Virus record (IMG/VR): IMGVR_UViG_3300048833_000312
Coordinates: 1-23,176 of that record
DNA from: a virus
DNA: 23,176 nucleotides
Reading direction: 5' to 3' (one strand)
Part shown: one piece after another, positions 570 through 19,151 of the stretch
How the letters are laid out: each line of letters starts with the position of its first letter
Position numbering within the stretch: position 1 is the stretch's first letter
Translations under genes and position numbers: made by a program
Notes under the pieces: model-generated
What the model was told of the DNA's origin: nothing
The model's database searches: none
What the model saw: the letters and a program-made list of their open reading frames with translations, nothing else

Positions 570-579
570 GGGCGACCCT

Positions 580-612
580 GTAAAGCCACAAGGGGGCTAA
601 GATCAGCTTTAC
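580..612. promoter_or_regulatory. 7-bp inverted repeat upstream of tail terminator gene
   Basis: GTAAAGC at 580-586 and GCTTTAC at 606-612 form perfect arms around a 19-base spacer. On the minus-strand transcript this hairpin sits just before the ribosome site of the tail-terminator gene, at the left edge of the lower-G+C cassette. It could be an RNA hairpin, an operator or a scar of the insertion. A palindromic TGACGTCA follows at 618-625. No clear -35/-10 pair is visible. Confidence 0.3.
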
Positions 613-661
613 TTCAGTGACGTCAGCCAACACGCGTTAAGCCTGATGAAAGTTGCCGAAG

Positions 662-1267
662 TCAGAAGCGGTTCTCCATCACTACAAACCACGGATAGCG
701 AGAATCAGTCAGAAACCCGTCACTGCTGAGTCGAACTTGTTTTCGGGTCACCGAGTGCCCAACATTCCCGCCGATTACGAAAGCATACTTCGGTCCGACT
801 TCGACCACAATATCAGTGTGACTCTGATACCACCCGACAGTTGGAGCGTTCTCAACCGTAATCTTCTTATCACCCCTCCAATAGCCAATTAGGTCTCCTG
901 GTGCGACAGGCCGTTCGGACTTCCCCCAACCCCAAAACAACGCACCTTGATTACTGCTATTCTTTGCGCGGATAGACTCATTAATGTATGTCGAGTGTCC
1001 CGCGGAATAGGAGAAAGCACCTCCAGCGCCAGCGGCATTCATACAATAGGAAATGAAGGCTGCAGACCAAGGATAACCCCTGTCCTTTCCTGTAAGGTTT
1101 GAGTAGGCACCGCCGATGAATTTCCAGTAGTCACCAACTCTCTGCCAAGCACCGTCTTGGTACTCCTTCTTCCCATCGGTAGTGGAACCATCCAACTTCC
1201 AAGTTCCCGATCCAAAGAAAATCCACTCGTTTGTGGCAGCCTCAATAAGCTTATCGATAGACGCCAT
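662..1267 (-). CDS. DUF2272 protein, CHAP/NlpC-like cell wall hydrolase candidate
   Basis: A 201-residue protein, last of the three-gene cassette. The core YPWSAAFISYCM (about residues 65-76), then FSYSAGHSTYI (85-95), PGDLIGYW (123-130), SHTDIVVEV (149-157) and GGNVGH (166-171) match the layout I recall for DUF2272, which resembles CHAP/NlpC-P60 amidases. In that fold the W(S/C)AAF segment carries the nucleophile; here it is serine (Ser68) rather than cysteine. His150 with Asp152, or His171, would be candidate partners. No signal peptide is visible, so it would stay in the cytoplasm unless released by lysis, packaged in virions, or exported by a partner. The ribosome site GAGGG lies eight bases before the ATG. 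Peptidoglycan hydrolysis is inferred from the fold and is not shown for this protein. Confidence 0.65.
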   Translation of the reverse strand: MASIDKLIEAATNEWIFFGSGTWKLDGSTTDGKKEYQDGAWQRVGDYWKFIGGAYSNLTGKDRGYPWSAAFISYCMNAAGAGGAFSYSAGHSTYINESIRAKNSSNQGALFWGWGKSERPVAPGDLIGYWRGDKKITVENAPTVGWYQSHTDIVVEVGPKYAFVIGGNVGHSVTRKQVRLSSDGFLTDSRYPWFVVMENRF

Positions 1268-1317
1268 AGCTATTCCCTCTATTTGACCTACGACCCAGAG
1301 CCTATTCTCTTCCTGAT

Positions 1318-2250
1318 CTACGTTGGTAATAACACCCCACCAATCAACTGGCGACGAGCCTCACAAGGATATGGACGGGTCATATTTGTAGCCCAACATT
1401 GCACCGGGATGCACACATCCTCAATCTGATCAATCTCAGAAAACTGTACATACTCCATCAGGAAGCTCGACCTGCAGTTTTCGACCGAGAACCGAAGATA
1501 CTTTCCCCAAAGATCAAGATTCAATTGCTGAGACCTCTCTATTATTGGCCCGCAATACAGATTTCTGAATCTTTCGATATCCTGAAACAAACCCGATCCG
1601 GCTGAGCACAAAGTGCTAGAATCGCACCTCCCCGAATCAATGCAGTCAAATACTCTTTCATGAAAGGCCACGAGGTCAGAAAAAGACCTTGATCCGTCAT
1701 GACTATTCAGCTGCTGATGTATCATCTCCAGGGCAGCTTTCAGGTCGCGTTCCTCGGGGATCACTCGATCCTGACCTTCACCTCGGTATCCGGCCGATCG
1801 AGCAAGTGCAGCAAGTCTCGTAGGGTCGTCCCAATAGGCGCCCAAAGAAACTGCCGCCAAGCCTGCCGGGCTGTTGGCATCTCTGTATTCTTCAATCAAC
1901 CGCAGAGACTGTCGCTCGCCCTCGTCGGACAGTAGACTTGCCGGAGTAAAGAAGTATAAGACAACAAAAACTGCAAATGCGGCTGCGGCCTTTATTGAAC
2001 CTCGCCGAAAAATTGGGAAGGCGATTTCGAGCTGGCCAGTAAGGGTAACCGCAAAACCAGCGCCGCCCAAGGCGATAACGGTTCGGTAGATCAAGAACTG
2101 TGCTGGCGTTGGCTCATCGCCAAATGCGACGATGCCAACGATGAGAAGAAGGAAAAACGCCCCAGTAAGAAACGGCCAGAGCAGCGATATCGAACCCGTT
2201 GTCTCGACCCGAACCTTCGGCTTATCTTTACTAGCGCCATTCTCTGTCAT
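1318..2250 (-). CDS. Three-helix membrane protein with large soluble C-terminal domain
   Basis: A 310-residue protein read from the ATG at 2250, preferred over the in-frame ATG at 2280 because an AGGGGG ribosome site precedes it and the earlier start would overlap the upstream gene. A charged N-tail is followed by three hydrophobic segments at about residues 21-43, 52-72 and 87-105. A soluble domain of about 200 residues follows, with seven cysteines in its last 120 residues. The stretch FHERVFDCIDSGRC, a gap, then ERFRNLYCGPIIE loosely resembles helical DUF4760-type domains attached to membrane helices; that similarity is my impression only. It lies eight bases after the Tat-leader gene and 50 bases before the DUF2272 gene, so the three are probably co-transcribed. 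Function is not recognised. Confidence 0.6.
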   Translation of the reverse strand: MTENGASKDKPKVRVETTGSISLLWPFLTGAFFLLLIVGIVAFGDEPTPAQFLIYRTVIALGGAGFAVTLTGQLEIAFPIFRRGSIKAAAAFAVFVVLYFFTPASLLSDEGERQSLRLIEEYRDANSPAGLAAVSLGAYWDDPTRLAALARSAGYRGEGQDRVIPEERDLKAALEMIHQQLNSHDGSRSFSDLVAFHERVFDCIDSGRCDSSTLCSAGSGLFQDIERFRNLYCGPIIERSQQLNLDLWGKYLRFSVENCRSSFLMEYVQFSEIDQIEDVCIPVQCWATNMTRPYPCEARRQLIGGVLLPT

Positions 2251-2258
2251 AACACCCC

Positions 2259-2834
2259 CTATTCCCTCACTTCGGTACAACAGCTACACATTTGGCAAAA
2301 GTTCGGGAAGAATTCATCCTCGTTTCCACCCTGCCTACCAGACTGAAAAACCTCCGGTATCAATTCACCGAACGAAGGATAAAGGATACCCTTTCCGATA
2401 CCGCTAAGGTCAACAAATCCCTGGTCGCCGCTTCTCAAATAGAGGTAGATGGCATTGCTATCACCATTGGACAAAACTGCGCTGCTCGGCCCAAGAAGTG
2501 AAGGTGTGAGCTCAATTGCCATAACATTTTGGCTTTGTGCGCCCTGACAGTGATCAATTTCAGACTCTTCTAATAGGGAAGTTGATAAAACTATTGCGGG
2601 TGTCTCGGTTGAGATCACGCTGCACCACACAGATAGCGCCTGATCGGAGGTTGTCGAATTTCCGAGAACGGTTTGCGCCCAAATCTCTACATCCGTGGTT
2701 TGCGCTACAAGTGGTACATTTAGGTTTACATCCAAGCCTGGAATGACAAGAACAGCGATGTCTTCGCTAGAAACTGCGCCAGGAAGTGAGCAAGCAAAGA
2801 ATGCGATGGCGGAAAGAAATTGTCTTCTAGGCAT
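2259..2834 (-). CDS. Exported protein with Tat-like leader, unknown function
   Basis: A 191-residue protein, first of the cassette in transcription order. The leader MPRRQFLSAIAFFACSLPGAVSS has a twin arginine followed by QFL, a hydrophobic stretch and a plausible signal peptidase site near AVS-S, which fits a Tat or Sec signal. The FFAC at residues 12-15 is a poor lipobox. The mature part is predicted to be strand-rich, with a buried-looking Cys pair (WCSV and DHCQG) and a cysteine-rich tail, FCQMCSCC. I do not recognise a family. An AAGG ribosome site stands close to the ATG. Base composition is clearly lower in G+C than in the phage structural genes. Export is well supported; what it does outside the membrane is unknown. 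Confidence 0.55.
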   Translation of the reverse strand: MPRRQFLSAIAFFACSLPGAVSSEDIAVLVIPGLDVNLNVPLVAQTTDVEIWAQTVLGNSTTSDQALSVWCSVISTETPAIVLSTSLLEESEIDHCQGAQSQNVMAIELTPSLLGPSSAVLSNGDSNAIYLYLRSGDQGFVDLSGIGKGILYPSFGELIPEVFQSGRQGGNEDEFFPNFCQMCSCCTEVRE

Positions 2835-2862
2835 CTGCCTTCAACCCACCTGGTTGACCTAG

Positions 2863-2883
2863 TGTAACTGTGTTCAGGTTACA
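2863..2883. promoter_or_regulatory. Inverted repeat upstream of the cassette
   Basis: TGTAAC at 2863-2868 and GTTACA at 2878-2883 are 6-bp inverted arms around nine bases. They lie in the 99-bp gap between the DUF6441 stop and the first cassette gene, about 30 bases before its ATG. The position suits an operator for a separate cassette promoter. I do not see a convincing -35/-10 pair with correct spacing. Confidence 0.35.
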
Positions 2884-2933
2884 TCTTTCCGCATCAATTT
2901 CGAGTCCCTTTTTGGGGGTCGATGAAGCGCCCC

Positions 2934-3551
2934 TCAACTGAGTTTCGCCACGATCAGTCTTGGCAGGTCATTCGCCGCCCGCTCCGCGTCTCGCGCCAGA
3001 TCCAGCCGCTTCGGCAGCTTGAGCTGCGGCACAAGGAAAAAGACGGGCACGGTGGTCAGCCCGCGGCCAGTTTTCGACCGCGAGGCAACTGCGCGACCCT
3101 TCGTGGTCAGCCGCCCCTCCGCTACCAGCAAGCTTGGCCCCGTCCGGCGATAGACGAAACGCAGGCGCAGCCCCGTCCGCCGCTCCCACTCGCCCGGCGA
3201 CATCCGGCCGCCGCGCAAGGACCTGCCCGCGGCGGGCAGTGGGATCGCAAGCCATAACCCGTTCTTTGACCGGATCAACGGCCCGGTGTCATGCGCGCCG
3301 ACAATGACCGGCGCCTTGGACCAGACGAGCGCGGCCGCGTTCAGGCTGGGCTGCCCCTTCGGATAATGCGCTGCCCGGATTGTATTGGCGAGCCGCTGTC
3401 CGAGCCCCGCCCCGGTGATCTGGCCGCGCCAAGATGCCTTGAGCCCCTCTCCCGCCGCGCGCATCGCGCTCGAAACTGCCCGCTCGCCCGCGGCGATCTC
3501 GGCCGCCATCAGCGCCTCCAGATCGCCGTCGATGTCCGCACGCAGGTTCAT
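2934..3551 (-). CDS. DUF6441 head-tail/tail completion protein
   Basis: A 205-residue protein in the head-to-tail junction region. MNLRADIDGDLEALM at the start, SMRAAGEGLKASWR, then ALVWSKAPVIVGAHDTGPLI, LWLAIPLPAAGR, RLRFVYRRTGPSLLVAEG and the basic C-terminus FFLVPQLKLPKRLD are the signature I associate with DUF6441. The gene order (joiner, this protein, tail terminator) suggests a minor tail or tail-completion role like lambda gpZ; this is inference. The ATG at 3551 is preferred to the GTG at 3560 because it gives the family-like N-terminus; the GTG would overlap the previous stop. The next structural gene (tail terminator) is 2.3 kb away because the foreign cassette lies between them. Confidence 0.75.
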   Translation of the reverse strand: MNLRADIDGDLEALMAAEIAAGERAVSSAMRAAGEGLKASWRGQITGAGLGQRLANTIRAAHYPKGQPSLNAAALVWSKAPVIVGAHDTGPLIRSKNGLWLAIPLPAAGRSLRGGRMSPGEWERRTGLRLRFVYRRTGPSLLVAEGRLTTKGRAVASRSKTGRGLTTVPVFFLVPQLKLPKRLDLARDAERAANDLPRLIVAKLS

Positions 3552-3556
3552 CGCGA

Positions 3557-3868
3557 TCACGCAGGCCGCAGGTCGACGGTCCAGACCAGCCGCTCGCGAT
3601 GGCGGGTTGGCTCCCCCTGGATGTGGAAGGCCTCGCCGTCGATCTCGATCCGGTCGCCGGGGCGCGGGGCTGGCACCTCGGCCACGCGCAGGTCGATCCG
3701 CGTGGTCTCGGACCAGAGCCGCGCATCGCCGAACTCGGTGACGGCATCGGCACGCCGGGCAACGACGCGCACCAGCTGGGGCACGCCGCCGTCGGCGATG
3801 TAGACCGCGTCCCGGGCGATGTTCGGGTCGGCGAAGAGCGCGCCCACGGCGGCGTCGAACGCGCTCAT
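3557..3868 (-). CDS. Head-tail joining protein (FII-like)
   Basis: A 103-residue protein with N-terminus MSAFDAAVGALFADPNIARD, then PQLVRVVARR, RIDLRVAEVPAPRPGDRIEI and HIQGEPTRHRERLVWTVDLRPA. The small size, the strand-rich body with the PRPGDRI turn and the GEP-R-D-ERLVWTVDL ending fit the lambda FII-like head-tail attachment family. These proteins bind the head side of the portal connector and create the tail docking surface. Its ATG shares one base with the DUF2190 stop (TGATG), which implies coupled translation. It comes directly before the DUF6441 gene, as expected for this morphogenesis block. Confidence 0.7.
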   Translation of the reverse strand: MSAFDAAVGALFADPNIARDAVYIADGGVPQLVRVVARRADAVTEFGDARLWSETTRIDLRVAEVPAPRPGDRIEIDGEAFHIQGEPTRHRERLVWTVDLRPA

Positions 3869-11574: not shown

Positions 11575-11795
11575 CAACCTGCATCCTGCGCCGCCGCGAC
11601 GTGATGCTGCGGACGGGCCTGAGCCGGAGCACGATCTACAAGTACATGGCTCTCGGAGAGTTCCCCAAACCAGTGCGGCTAGGGTCGAAGGCCGTCGGAT
11701 GGCGCGACAGTGACATCGAAGCGTGGATCGCATCGCGTCCTGTATCACCGCTTGGCCGTCCGGAACCCCGCCGCAGGGCGTTTCGTCGTCTCTGA
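11571..11795 (+). CDS. AlpA-like helix-turn-helix regulator
   Basis: A 74-residue protein with the compact AlpA/MerR-type winged helix: LRRRDVMLRTGLSRSTIYKY, then MALGEFPKPVRLGSKAVGWR and DSDIEAWIASRP. Every hallmark is present: recognition helix SRSTIYKYM, the FPKPVRLG wing and the W-DIEAWI helix. Relatives act as prophage activators, excisionase-like factors or repressors. The ATG overlaps the DUF3489 stop (ATGA). The basic tail (RPEPRRRAFRRL) may add nonspecific DNA contacts. It is the last gene before the terminator at 11812-11837. It could regulate the phage promoter at 15354-15383 or excision, but this is speculation. Confidence 0.85.
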   Translation: MTTCILRRRDVMLRTGLSRSTIYKYMALGEFPKPVRLGSKAVGWRDSDIEAWIASRPVSPLGRPEPRRRAFRRL

Positions 11796-11811
11796 CCCAT
11801 GCACATTTCAG

Positions 11812-11837
11812 CCGCCGCCCCGACCGGGCGGCGGTTT
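11812..11837 (+). terminator. Rho-independent terminator between convergent genes
   Basis: CCGCCGCCC (11812-11820), loop CGACC, GGGCGGCGG (11826-11834), then TTTCTC. The 9-bp all-GC stem lies 16 bases after the AlpA stop and one base before the HNH stop, between convergent genes. The short T run faces the plus strand, so it should mainly stop the plus-strand operon; the stem may also slow transcription from the other side. Confidence 0.7.
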
Positions 11838-11838
11838 C

Positions 11839-12216
11839 TCAAGGCGAAGAGAGCGGCGTTGCCGGCTTCGGCGCTACATGCGAGAACTGCGCCGCCAGCC
11901 ATTTGCCTGCTGCCATGCGTTTTTCGACGTGCCGACGATGCTCTTCCGGCGAAAGTGGACACTTCCGCCTGTGGCGCTGGTTGTTGCAGTACCAGCAGGC
12001 TGCGACGACGTTGTCGGCCGTGTTGCCGCCACCGTCTGAACGGGCGTGAAGATGCTCTGCGGTGCAGCGCAGCGACTTCGGCGCCAGCCTTATTCTGGCG
12101 TCTGGTCGTGATGCCACTTCCTTGACGGCATCATCCCACATCGGCAGTCCACAATAGTAGCAGCGGCCGCCTTGGGCGATCATTTTCCTTCGGCGTAAAA
12201 GTTTCAATGCTCCCAT
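11839..12216 (-). CDS. HNH endonuclease
   Basis: A 125-residue protein starting MGALKLLRRRKMIAQGGRCYYCG. Zinc-binding CYYC (residues 19-22) pairs with CWYC near the end of TAEHLHARSDGGGNTADNVV, where the EHLHARSDGG-N segment is the HNH core with catalytic His. The start is set at the ATG at 12216 because an AAGGA site stands eight bases upstream and the residues before it look non-coding. HNH proteins near terminase genes often assist DNA packaging; here it follows the methyltransferases and faces the AlpA operon, so packaging nuclease and homing-type nuclease are both possible. A 231-bp non-coding stretch separates it from the DUF7220 gene. Confidence 0.8.
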   Translation of the reverse strand: MGALKLLRRRKMIAQGGRCYYCGLPMWDDAVKEVASRPDARIRLAPKSLRCTAEHLHARSDGGGNTADNVVAACWYCNNQRHRRKCPLSPEEHRRHVEKRMAAGKWLAAQFSHVAPKPATPLSSP

Positions 12217-12388
12217 GGCAGGGATCCTTTCATTCGACTTCCTGAGAAGCGAATGCGCGGCGTCCGTGGGGACGCTCCCCGGCTGGAAGCTACTGCCCGC
12301 GCGAGGCCCGGGGAATCCGTGGCTCCGCATGCCGGACCGCGAAACCTGCAGGACAAGCCCTCGGGTCAGAGTAGCCTCTGGCTCACTC

Positions 12389-12408
12389 AAGTCGGTCACA
12401 GCCGACTT
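12389..12408. other. 7-bp perfect hairpin upstream of HNH gene
   Basis: AAGTCGG (12389-12395) and CCGACTT (12402-12408) flank six bases. It lies in the 231-bp non-coding stretch (12217-12447) between the DUF7220 stop and the HNH start. There is no T run on either side, so it is not a standard terminator; it could be an operator or a processing site. I see no other feature in this stretch apart from the HNH ribosome site. Confidence 0.3.
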
Positions 12409-12447
12409 CGCAGCAAGGATAAGGATAAGTGATCGTGCCCAAGCACG

Positions 12448-12657
12448 TCAACGACACCTTTCGAACAGCCGCCGCAAGACATAGGACCGCGCGATGCTGA
12501 CCACGGTAAAGACCACTCCCATCTGCAGTTTCTGCGCCAGCGTCGTGTGCAGCCCGAAGATCGGGAGGATCAGGATCTGTGTCATGACCGCGACGCCGTA
12601 GCCGACGATCACATTTGCGACGGACTCGACCAGCGACATGAGACGGGACTGCTTCAT
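12448..12657 (-). CDS. DUF7220 small membrane protein
   Basis: A 69-residue protein: MKQSRLMSLVESVANVIVGY, then GVAVMTQILILPIFGL and LQMGVVFTVVSIARSYVLRRLFE. Two hydrophobic segments (about 10-33 and 42-60) are separated by a short turn, and the basic ends should face the cytoplasm. I recall this pattern as DUF7220, common in Rhodobacterales prophages next to methyltransferase genes. The ATG is ten bases after the cytosine methyltransferase stop, with GAGG upstream, so it is coupled to it. Its role is unknown; superinfection exclusion or a holin-like task are possible for a two-helix phage membrane protein, but nothing decides between them. Confidence 0.75.
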   Translation of the reverse strand: MKQSRLMSLVESVANVIVGYGVAVMTQILILPIFGLHTTLAQKLQMGVVFTVVSIARSYVLRRLFERCR

Positions 12658-12666
12658 ACGAGCGCC

Positions 12667-13575
12667 TCATCCATCGGCCAGCAGCTGAGCCGCGAGAGTT
12701 CGCATCGCATGCGCTGCAACCAGGGGAACCACACCGTTGCCACAGAGCCGGAGCCGGTCCACCCGGTGGGCCAACCCATCAGCGCCTCGGCGAACAGCGG
12801 GTTCAGTGTCCGGCGAGCATCGCAGGTATCGCTCCCAACCATCGGCGTCACGAGGACCTGGCGGCCAAGCAGACCGTTCACCGGCGTGTTCGCCAATGTC
12901 GTCGCCCCGTCCTTGTGATCCCGCGCTGTCGGCGTCATCCAGTGCAACACTTTCTCCGTTCGGTTCTGGTCGCTCGACCGGGTTCCGGAGGAGGCGCGCG
13001 GGGTCGGCCTCACCGTCACCCTCGCGGATGGCGAGGATGAAGAGCCGTTCGCGCTTGTGGGGCGCACCGACTTCCGCCGCCGTGAAGAGGCCTGCCGCAA
13101 GGCGATAGCCTATGCCGACCAGTCCACTGGCGACTTCGGGGAAGCCGAGGCGGAGATGATGGGCGACATTCTCGAGGAACACGAAGGGCGGCTCGACCTC
13201 GGCGATGATGCGGGCGACATGCGGCCAGAGGTGGCGTGGATCGTCCGCGCCCCGCCGCCTGCCCGCGACGGAGAACGGCTGGCACGGATAGCCCGCAGTG
13301 ACGATGTCCACCGCGCCGCGCCACGGGCGGCCGTCGAAGGTCGCAACGTCGTCCCAGACAGGCGCGCAATCCAGGGACGTGTCCTCCATCCGCGCCACGA
13401 GAGTGGCCGCGGCGAAGGCGTCCCGTTCGACGTAACCCACAGCACGATATCCGGGGATGGCGAGGACGAGCCCGAGGTCGAGCCCGCCTGCACCGGAGCA
13501 GAGGGAGAGGCCGAACAGGCATGTGTCTGCGGTCCAGGAAACGTCTCCGGAGAAAGTTAGAGCCAGGTCATGCAT
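12667..13575 (-). CDS. C5-cytosine DNA methyltransferase
   Basis: A 302-residue enzyme with the standard motif order: motif I LSLCSGAGGLDLG (24-36), motif IV with nucleophile Cys98 in GYPCQPFSVAGRR, motif VI FLENV (133-137), motif VIII APHKRERLF (171-179) and motif X CGNGVVP (278-284). It transfers a methyl group from SAM to C5 of cytosine in a specific site. The recognition region between VIII and X is short, about 85 residues, and rich in Asp, Gly and Arg, so the target cannot be guessed. The start is one base after the preceding methylase stop. No cognate restriction enzyme is visible, so it is probably an orphan protecting phage DNA. All catalytic motifs are intact. Confidence 0.9.
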   Translation of the reverse strand: MHDLALTFSGDVSWTADTCLFGLSLCSGAGGLDLGLVLAIPGYRAVGYVERDAFAAATLVARMEDTSLDCAPVWDDVATFDGRPWRGAVDIVTAGYPCQPFSVAGRRRGADDPRHLWPHVARIIAEVEPPFVFLENVAHHLRLGFPEVASGLVGIGYRLAAGLFTAAEVGAPHKRERLFILAIREGDGEADPARLLRNPVERPEPNGESVALDDADSAGSQGRGDDIGEHAGERSAWPPGPRDADGWERYLRCSPDTEPAVRRGADGLAHRVDRLRLCGNGVVPLVAAHAMRTLAAQLLADG

Positions 13576-14944: not shown

Positions 14945-15003
14945 GAGGTTGATCCTGTTCGATAGGTTGGCCAGCACGCGCCCGTTCAAGCGGAGCGGCG
15001 CGG

Positions 15004-15298
15004 TGGACTCCGCTGGTGGATTCCGGCTGGACCCCAAAGGTGGATCCTGACTGACTTCCGGAGTCCAGGGTATCCACTCCGGAGTCCACCTGCCAAGTAT
15101 CTGTTATTGCGTCGTTATCAGAAGATCAGAGGGTGGACTCCGACGTGGGTGGACTCCCATAAAATCGGACCTGACGCTGGCGATATTGCGCGCTTCGCCC
15201 CCCAGCATACGAATATCGCCCGGAAGGAACCGGAAACTCGCCGGGGCTGGACCCCAACTGGATTCCCGGCTGGATTCCGGGGTCCACCATGGGGTCCA
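15004..15298. repeat. Array of 8-bp TGGAYYCC repeats in both orientations
   Basis: Twelve full copies of TGGA(C/T)(C/T)CC or its complement occur in 295 bp. Forward copies: TGGACTCC at 15004, 15134 and 15150; TGGATTCC at 15017, 15259 and 15271; TGGACCCC at 15028 and 15248. Inverted copies: GGAGTCCA at 15060 and 15081; GGGGTCCA at 15279 and 15291. A shortened TGGATCC starts at 15041. Under equal base frequencies fewer than 0.1 copies are expected, so the cluster is not chance. Copies fall in two groups, 15004-15157 and 15248-15298, with spacings of roughly 11-16 bases inside groups. This suggests a multi-site protein-binding region such as an origin or a silencer. Confidence 0.7.
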
Positions 15299-15353
15299 CT
15301 GAGACGACAACGGGGAGAGCCGTCTTCCAACGCACTCTCCCCATCATGATGCT

Positions 15354-15383
15354 TCTATAGCACCCCAATGTTGCATGTGTCGA
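15354..15383 (-). promoter_or_regulatory. Candidate sigma-70-type promoter for the methyltransferase operon
   Basis: On the minus strand, TCGACA (15383-15378) resembles the -35 box TTGACA with one mismatch, and TATAGA (15359-15354) is a fair -10 box, 18 bases apart. It points toward the methyltransferase genes and transcribes through the repeat array. The -35 box overlaps a half-site like the nearby palindrome (TGTTGCA, 15369-15375, extending to TGTGT at 15380), so binding there could block or help polymerase. Confidence 0.5.
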
Positions 15384-15391
15384 AGGGAAAA

Positions 15392-15403
15392 GTGTTGCAA
15401 CAC
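15392..15403. promoter_or_regulatory. 12-bp perfect palindrome, operator candidate
   Basis: GTGTTGCAACAC is self-complementary. A related half-site TGTTGCA occurs 23 bases away at 15369-15375, and the pair is part of a larger imperfect inverted repeat (CCAATG-TTGCA at 15365-15375 against its complement ending at 15409). The location just upstream of the -35 box fits a repressor or activator dimer site, possibly for a phage regulator. Confidence 0.5.
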
Positions 15404-15414
15404 ATTGGACTCGC

Positions 15415-15792
15415 TCATGCATTCAGCCGCGCCGCCATCTTGGTCAGTGCCAACTGCCAGCGCCGCCAGGCGGTCGTGCGGTCGCAGCCGAGCTCGCCGC
15501 TGATCTGCTTCCACGGCACCCGGGCCGCACGGGACCAGACCAGCTTGCGCTCCCCCTCCTCGATCCAGAGCACCCAGTCGAAGGTCTGTTCAAGCCGGGT
15601 GATCGCGGCGGCCGACGGCCAGACCCGCATCGGCTCGGGCTCCATGCGGGCGATCTCCTTTGGCGAGCGCAGGATGGCGGGCCAGGCGTTGAAGTAGCCC
15701 TGCACTTTCACGGGCGGCAGCTTGCGCAGGGTGCGGAAAGCCTCCTCGAAATGATCCGCCACGTCGTCGGCGGTCCAGACGCGGTCAGTCAT
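15415..15792 (-). CDS. DUF6362 protein, C-terminal helix-turn-helix
   Basis: A 125-residue protein. The conserved beginning WTADDVADHFEEAFRTLRKL, KVQGYFNAWPAI, the central ITRLEQTFDWVLWIE and LVWSRAARVPWKQI, then GCDRTTAWRRWQLALTKMA, match DUF6362. The C-terminal third is a sigma-like helix-turn-helix, with LGCDRTTAWRRW as the recognition helix, so DNA binding is likely. The start at 15792 overlaps the previous stop by eight bases. It is the last gene before the 470-bp control region, and may be a good candidate for binding there. Prophage regulator of late or methylase genes is a guess. Confidence 0.8.
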   Translation of the reverse strand: MTDRVWTADDVADHFEEAFRTLRKLPPVKVQGYFNAWPAILRSPKEIARMEPEPMRVWPSAAAITRLEQTFDWVLWIEEGERKLVWSRAARVPWKQISGELGCDRTTAWRRWQLALTKMAARLNA

Positions 15793-16479: not shown

Positions 16480-16823
16480 GCCGACCTCCTCTTCGCTTGG
16501 GCGAGCGTGGCGGGAGGGCTGGCCGGTGAAGGCTGCGGTCTCGCCAGGCCCCGAAGGGTGGTCTGGTCATGTCAGGCGCGGGGCGAACGGGCCGCCCGGC
16601 AATGTTTCTGTGCTTCAGTGCAATCCGCTTGAAGCAACCCGGGGCCTAACCCCTTGGCGTCCCTATATAATATATATATTTCATATTGTTATATTGAGAT
16701 ACGGGGCACATCACTCCTTACTTATGCCGCGCGCACGCACACGCGTAGGGAAAGGGTTTCCTCCTGAAAGATTGAAGCAAGGACGGGCCCCCATTTTTCT
16801 CATCCTGTTCTGATGGTTACGGG
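16480..16823. other. 344-bp non-coding gap with AT-rich island
   Basis: No convincing gene on either strand. The main feature is the stretch 16664-16701, with only four G or C in 38 bases, in a genome of about two thirds G+C. It includes TATAATATATATAT and two ATATTG steps nine bases apart. A small GGGG-CCTAA-CCCC hairpin sits at 16641-16653. The ribosome site of the resolvase is at the left end. The island could be a promoter for the resolvase operon or an unwinding element. Confidence 0.55.
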
Positions 16824-19151
16824 TCATTTGACTTCCTTTTGAGAGATCCTGCGCCCTGAAGCATCGCGCCAGGGACCGACCCACCTTGCCATCCTGTAGA
16901 CCATCGCCTGTTTGGTCGATGACCCGCGCATGCCAGTGGTGATATCCCCGCTCTCGAAGAGGGTCAGCAGGATTTCGTCCCGGTCACGGGATTTCAGCCA
17001 TTGTGAGGCCCGGGTGATCTCGGACTTGGTGATCCCCTTGGCGCCGGCCGCCCGGATGATCTCCTTCAGCCGCTTCAGATGGGCCTCGGTCTCGGTGTCC
17101 GCGACATGCCGCTCGACCGCTTCCATCGTGCGCTGTGCATAGTGCCGCACGAAGGTGATCGCCCACTCCGCGGCGGTGATGTCGATTTCGGGTCGGGTCG
17201 GATCACGCCCCACCGCCACGATGAGCGCCAGCTTCAGGGCATTTTCCCCGATGCGGGCCAGGATTGCGGTGAAAGCCGTGCCAGCCGCCGCGCGCAATTC
17301 CTCCGTCAGCTCGACGCTGAGTTGGCTGAACCGGGCCCTCGCTTCCTCGGTCATCGGCACGACCATCGGGTTCACGGCGGTGTTCTGGTCGGCGGTCTTG
17401 CCGGTCAGGTTGCCCTTTCTGCCTCCACCGCCCGCTGCGATCCGTTGCAGCCCCTGGATCAGTGCGAGCGGGGCCTGCCGGATGCCCACGGCGATGTTTT
17501 CATCGGGGTAGTCCTCGTCGCTGGGCAGGATCAGAAAGCGCGCGAGCGAGCCATCAACCACGTTGGCGCCCTGCAGCGCGCCCCAGAAGTGCAGCGGCGT
17601 CGTGGTGCCATAGACGCAGAGACAGGGCTGGTTGATGTCGCGCCGTTCGTTCGTGCCGTCCCGGTTGGCATACTCCGCCCCAAGGAAGATCCCGCCCGCA
17701 GCCGTGAAGAGCTCGGTCATGTTGTCGAGAATCTCGGTGATGTGGCGCGGGCTGCGCTTGCGGTCCGCGGCCGCCGACAGGAACATGCCGAACTCGTCGA
17801 TCTGGAACAGGATCGCGGGCTGGCGGTACAGCGCGGTCAGAAGCCCCGCGCCGGAGGCGATCTTGTTGCCACCAAGGTGATGGGCGAGCCCCGCCTCGAA
17901 GAAGGTCTCGTTGATGATCTCCCGGGCGTGGTTCTTGCCCGATCCGCTGTCCGCGATGCCCACGACATAGAGGTTCGAGCGCAGGTTGCTCTCGGTGCGG
18001 TAATTCCGCCCCATCAGCGCACCGATGGCGCAGAGGCTGGCCCCGAGCGACAGAAGCGGTTGCGGGCGTCGGGCGGTGGACAGCATGTAGTCCGTCAGAT
18101 CGCCCACCAGCCCGTCAGGGATGACCAGCGAGAATGGCGGCGCGGCAGGTGACGCGGATGGCACTGTTGCCGCCACATCCAGCCTCGCGAGAAGCCCTGC
18201 CGCGGGATGCTCCCCGTCTGCGTGGAGGCTGCCGTCGAGACGAAGATCGGGGTCAGGTTGCCAGCCGCGTTCCATGGCAAGATGGTAGATCGTGCCAGCC
18301 CCGATCCGGTCGGGCTTGAAGCTGCACCAGGTCTTCATGGTGGTGGCGGGCACGTCCTTGGCCGCCTGCGCAGACCAGTCGGCAAAGAGACCGGCCCCGG
18401 CCTCGCCGAGCGCCCCCTTCAGAGCCATGCCGACGCGCATCCAGCTGTCATAGTCGAGCTCGGTATTCGGGAGCCAGGCAAGCGCCGCCTCAATCGCGGG
18501 CAAAGTGCCGATTTGACTGTGGCTGCGCACGACATCAGCGGCTGGTGACATGGCAGCTAACCCGCGCTGACGAAGGGCTTCAGGCAGCAGAGCATAGGCC
18601 TCGTCGAGGAAAGCGGTGGCAGCCTCGGCCGAGATCTCCGGCAGGTCGGTGATGTCGATGTCCGCCAGCCCTTCCTCGGGCCAGGCATAGGGCGCGCCGG
18701 TGTCAGGGTGGATGGCATAGGCCAGGAACTGCTGCCCGAGGCAGAGCACCTCCAGCGGGTGGCGCTTGATTCCGCGGAATGGTTCTGCGGTGCGATAGAC
18801 CAGCAGGCGCTTCGGGGCCCGGCCAATCCGCAGGGCGGGTGTATCGCCGAGACGTTCCCGGGCGAGGCGATCGATCTGCAGCGCCAGGTCTGCATCGTCC
18901 TTGATGTCGATGTCGACCGCCGCCACGGCGCCGCCAACGATGCCGACGCCGCAATCGGGCCACGACGACCATGTGGCCACCTCGACCTCGGTAGTGCCGC
19001 GTTCCGCATGGCGGTTCCATTCCGGGTAATCCGTCCATGCGCCGCGCTGGAACCGGCCGGGCTTCTTCGTTCCGGGAGCGATGGGCAGGATGGCATAGCC
19101 ATGGGTGACGAGCCGCGCGCCGTAGCGCGCCATGAAGGATGTGTCAGCCAT
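16824..19151 (-). CDS. Bifunctional primase-polymerase with helicase/ATPase domain
   Basis: A 775-residue protein. Residues 5-200 form an AEP prim-pol domain: GYAILPIAPGTKKPG, metal-binding VDIDIKD (Asp80, Asp82) and the basic RAPKRLLVYR. Residues 212-298 resemble a PriCT domain (AIEAALAWLP, WMRVGMALKGALG). Residues 340-700 form a P-loop ATPase of the DUF3987 kind: Walker A-like IADSGSGKN (399-407), Walker B ILFQIDEFGMF (447-457). The C-terminus has a winged-helix-like part (ITKSEITRAS). It should prime and unwind phage DNA. The ATG at 19151 overlaps the DUF6511 stop (ATGA) and fits the domain; an earlier ATG at 19226 adds 25 unrelated residues. Confidence 0.85.
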   Translation of the reverse strand: MADTSFMARYGARLVTHGYAILPIAPGTKKPGRFQRGAWTDYPEWNRHAERGTTEVEVATWSSWPDCGVGIVGGAVAAVDIDIKDDADLALQIDRLARERLGDTPALRIGRAPKRLLVYRTAEPFRGIKRHPLEVLCLGQQFLAYAIHPDTGAPYAWPEEGLADIDITDLPEISAEAATAFLDEAYALLPEALRQRGLAAMSPAADVVRSHSQIGTLPAIEAALAWLPNTELDYDSWMRVGMALKGALGEAGAGLFADWSAQAAKDVPATTMKTWCSFKPDRIGAGTIYHLAMERGWQPDPDLRLDGSLHADGEHPAAGLLARLDVAATVPSASPAAPPFSLVIPDGLVGDLTDYMLSTARRPQPLLSLGASLCAIGALMGRNYRTESNLRSNLYVVGIADSGSGKNHAREIINETFFEAGLAHHLGGNKIASGAGLLTALYRQPAILFQIDEFGMFLSAAADRKRSPRHITEILDNMTELFTAAGGIFLGAEYANRDGTNERRDINQPCLCVYGTTTPLHFWGALQGANVVDGSLARFLILPSDEDYPDENIAVGIRQAPLALIQGLQRIAAGGGGRKGNLTGKTADQNTAVNPMVVPMTEEARARFSQLSVELTEELRAAAGTAFTAILARIGENALKLALIVAVGRDPTRPEIDITAAEWAITFVRHYAQRTMEAVERHVADTETEAHLKRLKEIIRAAGAKGITKSEITRASQWLKSRDRDEILLTLFESGDITTGMRGSSTKQAMVYRMARWVGPWRDASGRRISQKEVK

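Follow-up and report, generated by a model that had tools for sequence, protein, structure and literature searches.

A 2364-bp block in the viral record studied here is one of many interchangeable cargo inserts that occupy a hotspot between the DUF6441 and tail terminator genes in a large, Rhodobacterales-centred lineage of siphophages and prophages, an assignment made with very high confidence. The window analysed is the whole 23,176-base viral record. The block carries three genes (A, B and C), predicted to encode an exported protein, a membrane protein and a DUF2272 protein. The best explanation as a whole, namely hotspot cargo exchanged by recombination in its flanks and carrying an envelope trio that would act in exclusion or abortive lysis, is about evenly poised between right and wrong.

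Results

Layout and composition of the block

The block, its anchor genes and the repeats around it are located as follows:

2934..3560, minus strand: DUF6441 minor tail/completion protein, left anchor of the hotspot (PF20039, 1.4e-46)
2841..2883, minus strand: leader with two short inverted repeats with 6-bp arms, TGTAAC...GTTACA (2863-2883) and TCAACC...GGTTGA (2841-2857)
570..2933, no strand: cargo insert, 2364 bp, G+C 0.50 vs 0.69 in the flanks, which are adjacent or overlapping in empty relatives and enclose unrelated inserts in others
2259..2834, minus strand: gene A, 191 aa, predicted exported protein (open frame and RRQFL signal)
1318..2250, minus strand: gene B, 310 aa from ATG, three predicted helices (open frame, helix and charge prediction)
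662..1267, minus strand: gene C, 201 aa, DUF2272 CHAP/papain-like domain (PF10030, E 1.5e-32)
580..612, minus strand: trailer inverted repeat GTAAAGC...GCTTTAC, 7-bp arms, 19-nt loop
150..569, minus strand: tail terminator, right anchor of the hotspot (phrog_4204, 8.9e-41)

The insert runs from the DUF6441 stop codon on one side to the tail-terminator start codon on the other. Genes A, B and C share one strand and the direction of the late genes, with 99 bp ahead of A, 8 bp between A and B, 50 bp between B and C, and 92 bp between C and the tail terminator. Each of their starts is preceded by a purine-rich stretch compatible with a ribosome site, and an alternative TTG start for gene B at 2280 would make it overlap gene A. 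The three genes have a G+C content of 0.48-0.51 vs 0.68-0.73 in neighbour genes, and a third-position G+C of 0.45-0.53 vs 0.82-0.91. The first-pass annotation had described a lower-G+C three-gene block with different codon use, one direction and short gaps between DUF6441 and the tail terminator, and all of this was confirmed (50% vs 69% G+C over 2,364 bp).

Inverted repeats had also been reported before and after the block. They are present but do not exceed chance and were given no weight, as equally good repeats were found in 26% (leader) and 7% (trailer) of shuffled sequences, with RNA folding z-scores of -0.96 and -0.83, respectively; the leader repeats are a possible operator, no better than chance. 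A promoter scan of the window likewise returned nothing better than chance. Rfam and tRNA scans of the window gave no matches, and thus no tRNA-type integration site is indicated.

Elsewhere in the window, further dips in G+C (0.58-0.63) at 11750-12750, 15000-15500 and 16500-17000 cover an HNH endonuclease gene and genes without matches, and may represent additional acquired genes. A 486-aa protein encoded at 13577-15037 matches both ParB-like and DNA methyltransferase families and adjoins a second methyltransferase (12667-13575).

The DUF6441-tail terminator junction is a cargo hotspot

Comparable loci were collected by searching viral contigs and genomes for DUF6441 relatives, and viral contigs for tail-terminator and head-tail attachment protein relatives, so that the queries were flanking genes and the presence of an insert was not selected for. 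The best 80 loci per scan were retained, and the counts therefore describe a sample biased to close relatives. Over all queries, at least 278 loci have the site between DUF6441 and the tail terminator, and 219 of them are non-identical. An insert of 372-4262 bp is present in 208 of these 219 sampled loci, and in the remaining 11 the two genes overlap and the site is empty. The DUF6441-terminator distance is bimodal in the first 144 loci, i.e., 13 are overlapping and 131 have 372-4262 bp between the two genes. The other junctions of the region served as controls: more than 300 bp separates the genes in 131/144 loci at the DUF6441-terminator junction vs 5/144 at attachment-DUF6441, 1/50 at g10-attachment, 3/45 at capsid-g10 and 3/33 at portal-capsid. 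Where genome records name a host, it is mostly a member of the Rhodobacteraceae, with some Hyphomicrobiales.

Grouped by shared 15-mers, the inserts of the 219 sampled loci fall into at least 161 unrelated groups, 139 with a single member, a number that depends on the 15-mer threshold. Insert G+C is below that of the flanks in all 161 groups (means 0.559 vs 0.679). The inserts start on or close to the DUF6441 stop codon and extend to the start of the terminator gene, which is conserved (ATGCCCACC...CGCGAAACC). No common recombination site and no flanking repeat was visible when insert junctions were compared, which suggests homologous recombination within the conserved flanks as the route of cargo exchange. 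The longest cargo open reading frame, picked by length and hence approximate, has the direction of the late genes in 72 groups and the opposite direction in 89, and this use of either orientation fits the expectation for autonomous genes. The same 507-bp insert was seen in seven loci (L070, L072, L077, L079, L133, L136 and L141), whose records come from hosts of different genera (Cereibacter, Paracoccus, a Methylocystaceae MAG); either one phage has spread broadly, or the cargo was shared recently.

These comparisons strongly support the earlier proposal that the block is a moron, i.e., separately acquired cargo. The empty site that the first-pass annotation suggested looking for in relatives was found, and the same genes at the same place with normal composition, which it held would speak against cargo, were not; relatives carry different, non-homologous inserts, all lower in G+C than their flanks. 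Its statement that the two anchor genes are normally adjacent applies to the lytic relative RcKemmy and Synechococcus phage Sc-Yong805-1, as well as to the 11 empty loci, but within the lineage an insert is the rule.

Other cargo of the slot

Pfam and PADLOC searches with representative cargo proteins, in which most families were matched by a single scanned protein each, returned a range of conflict-type matches (DarT, NADAR-DarT1, putAbiC, HipA, Fic, NYN, NERD, HEPN and SIR2). Further matches were SocA/Panacea, PIN_10 and DUF433, GIY-YIG/PD-T4-3, PDC-M09A, HNH, PLD, DprA, QueC, OGG and nucleoside deoxyribosyltransferase. Transport and metabolic cargo included chromate and cation transporters, PTE, MFS, formamidase and isochorismatase, and regulatory or sensory cargo included LysR, TetR, MerR and HxlR regulators, BLUF and a histidine kinase. 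Known defence and toxin-antitoxin genes are thus common in the slot yet a minority of its cargo, and they share it with metabolic and resistance genes. In three loci (L068:6776-9794, L134 and L150), the cargo consists of a nucleoside deoxyribosyltransferase-domain protein, a QueC-like protein and further genes, resembling a defence or DNA-modification operon.

Gene C is a probable peptidoglycan hydrolase

Gene C is a clear member of DUF2272 (PF10030), scoring 113.4 bits against a curated cut-off of 27, and is 44% identical to a Rhizobium plasmid protein. It has no signal peptide. In alignments with plasmid and with viral relatives, W67, S68, H91, G124-D125, H150, D152 and GGN166-168 are retained, almost all of them without exception in either set. 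At the position of the catalytic Cys of CHAP/NlpC-P60 enzymes stands Ser68, which, like His150, is invariant in all aligned DUF2272 sequences. The AlphaFold model of gene C (pLDDT 88) has a papain-like, CHAP-like fold; CHAP-type lysins and amidases ranked first among solved structures, although weakly (best E 0.0075, TM about 0.4), and matches among viral models were the DUF2272 protein of phage Ccr34 (1e-12), CHAP endolysins and a tail lysozyme.

Read by eye, DUF2272 in relatives is joined to SleB-, lysozyme-, lytic transglycosylase- and SH3b-like stretches, and also lies within very large proteins resembling baseplate hubs on T4-like contigs. In a published classification, the family is placed among papain-like domains with Ser for Cys, and a peptidase-like or amidase activity is suggested as a prediction (PMC10318531). 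Because of the CHAP-like fold, the conserved Ser and His, the wall-hydrolase-like fusions, the hub-like proteins and this classification, gene C probably encodes a peptidoglycan hydrolase. The earlier suggestion that the trio acts at the envelope gains support from this prediction and from the predicted localisation of the other two products.

Several DUF2272 loci deserve mention in their own right. In large T4-like environmental phages (L208-L255, e.g., L228:5218-6507, L230:5260-6498, L253:5218-6606 and L224:2260-6528), the domain sits in big hub-like tail proteins as if in place of a tail lysozyme domain, and may represent a new tail-lysin family. On a Nostoc plasmid (L083), a DUF2272 gene lies beside AAA-like/WD40 proteins, and on a Rhizobium plasmid (L090) beside patatin, DUF3616, serine protease and MBL-fold genes, both arrangements recalling conflict loci of several genes. 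On short GC-rich loci where gene calls are unreliable, many alphaproteobacterial members of the family resemble host lipoproteins.

Genes A and B, and the uniqueness of the trio

The product types named in the first-pass annotation are upheld as sequence predictions. Gene A begins with MPRRQFLS, in which RRQFL at residues 3-7 is a twin-arginine-type signal, and has seven Cys, with a C-terminal CQMCSCC cluster. Gene B has three predicted helices near residues 24-106, a charge pattern that predicts an N-inside, C-outside topology, and eight Cys, all of them within the C-terminal domain (203-296). Export of A, membrane insertion of B and an outside location of its C-terminal domain are accordingly predicted. 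The helices of gene B weakly match the C-terminal part of phrog_5814 (1.9e-8), a profile that matched nothing in 32 host genomes or controls. An AlphaFold model of gene B alone was discarded (pLDDT 42).

No credible relatives of A or B were found by tblastn in phages and plasmids or in viral contig scans, none of gene B in a genome contig scan or in 395 genomes of one family, and none of gene A in 385 genomes from the class or 293 from the order. Gene A gave weak matches (E 0.002-0.009), some of them in frames interrupted by stops, and all were dismissed as chance. The trio was in no other hotspot locus sampled (tblastn, phmmer against all cargo frames, DUF2272 profiles), the DUF2272 gene was in no other inserted locus sampled, and DUF2272 neighbourhoods on plasmids and in 37 alphaproteobacterial loci had no A or B partner. 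In a PADLOC search for described defence families, none of A, B and C gave a match at E <= 1. Family profile searches returned no immunity family for gene A and no holin family for gene B, whose 310 aa comprise three helices and a Cys-rich outer domain, and gene A has no spanin motif. The lack of co-occurrence elsewhere, which the first-pass annotation had itself named as a refuting outcome, therefore speaks against a recurring three-gene system in the collections searched, and leaves the cargo reading intact.

Discussion

Possible functions of the trio

The trio may form an envelope module. Protein A would be exported by the Tat route, probably folded, and B would reside in the inner membrane with its disulfide-rich domain outside. 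C would be a cytoplasmic CHAP-like peptidoglycan hydrolase that is harmless while the membrane is closed; without a signal peptide, it could not reach the wall unless the membrane is opened. A and B might sense or gate at the envelope, with B opening or gating the membrane and A sensing or regulating in the periplasm. When a rival phage attacks, C would then reach the wall and the cell would be sacrificed. Exclusion or abortive lysis is favoured because the slot is rich in defence genes, and is held tentatively, at rather less than even confidence. The export and membrane signals and clustered Cys of A and B, the phage-conflict cargo in the slot, and a related R. capsulatus phage that keeps its holin and endolysin elsewhere were counted in its favour. 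Counted against it were that no relative of A or B backs any role, that the trio is a single instance, that its orientation is that of the late genes and its expression may be confined to lysis, that much of the other cargo has metabolic, regulatory or metal-related rather than defensive functions, that the DUF2272 nucleophile is Ser, not Cys, and that PADLOC gave no match for A, B or C.

The slot also holds chromate and cation transporters, PTE, MFS, BLUF, formamidase and isochorismatase genes in other loci, and, together with the lipoprotein-like appearance of many alphaproteobacterial DUF2272 proteins, this is consistent with lysogenic conversion unrelated to phage competition, in which the trio would remodel the envelope or serve a stress or nutrient function for the host. 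No evidence links A or B with this kind of function, and no other specific point argues against it; we consider it somewhat unlikely.

The position of the trio inside the late operon and in its orientation, the endolysin-like C without signal peptide and the three N-terminal helices of B would suit an accessory late lysis set used in a particular host; B would then form a holin-like pore or gate, C would add a further endolysin and A would be an envelope partner. However, B, with 310 aa and a large Cys-rich outer domain, is unlike a typical holin, A is not a spanin by motif, and no other sampled insert has a DUF2272 gene. In RcKemmy, the holin and endolysin follow the tail genes, and the window ends before that region. 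An accessory lysis role is thus rather unlikely, and a reading of the block as the phage's own lysis cassette was rejected as the leading one because the related RcKemmy encodes these functions elsewhere.

An exported A next to a C without signal peptide also recalls effector-immunity pairs, and Tse1-like amidase roles have been suggested for DUF2272 proteins (PMC10318531). C could then be a wall-degrading toxin delivered to competitors, from which periplasmic A, with B, protects the producer; this is quite improbable, as neither a delivery system nor an effector-trafficking domain was seen, A matches no immunity family and the trio is a single instance. That C is a tail-associated lysin packaged in the virion is highly improbable, since, despite the hub-like DUF2272 proteins of big phages and the location among tail genes, C is a stand-alone protein absent from all relatives and accompanied by two envelope proteins, at a site that takes any kind of gene.

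Returning to exclusion or abortive lysis, a bolder form of it would make the trio a prophage defence system not described before. Two envelope proteins acting as sensors (Tat-exported, Cys-rich A and membrane-bound B with its disulfide-rich outer domain) would free or activate a Ser-type CHAP-like wall hydrolase, and the slot would be a large, still unmined store of such systems in phages of alphaproteobacteria; we regard this as rather unlikely.

Relation to known systems

The hotspots of P2 and P4 are small, roughly 1-5 kb in size, have a high turnover and lie between two conserved genes (Rousset et al. 2022; PMC9122126). The DUF6441-terminator slot is likewise small, has high turnover and two conserved anchors, and holds defence and toxin-antitoxin genes. 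It differs in that it belongs to another phage lineage and other hosts, lies between two tail-completion genes and not beside cos, carries many metabolic and resistance genes, and has a putative defence role. It fits a P2/P4-type site in Rhodobacterales-centred siphophages, i.e., a new hotspot carrying an uncharacterised trio. Prophage morons or lysogenic conversion genes are, like the block, genes of foreign composition between conserved late genes, whereas in this lineage a single fixed slot is occupied in about 95% of the relatives sampled, mostly with different inserts. Gene C resembles CHAP/NlpC-P60 peptidoglycan hydrolases (Ly7917, PlyC, PlyPy, Gsp amidase) in its predicted fold and catalytic-site His, but has Ser for Cys, as throughout DUF2272, and only a distant best solved-structure match. 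Unlike the other DUF2272 genes examined, it has A and B as neighbours.

Key-term searches of papers on Rhodobacteraceae prophages, R. capsulatus phages and RcGTA origins (PMC8224337, PMC8601537, PMC11409702) gave no description of the slot, and gene insertions in the g6-g10 head-tail region of GTA-like phages are reported in one of these three sources. DUF6441 was not mentioned in the literature searched.

Implications

Anchor-gene hotspots in E. coli phages have been a productive source of new defence systems. The slot is equally clean and occurs in a widespread alphaproteobacterial lineage, and the 219 loci sampled contain at least 161 distinct inserts. These inserts, many of whose genes are without known function, are short enough for whole cloning, making them a ready screening set. 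The context of the slot also suggests that the uncharacterised DUF2272 domain is a wall hydrolase. It is predicted that the trio of the window and the other cargo of the slot are selected for effects on the host or on rival phages.
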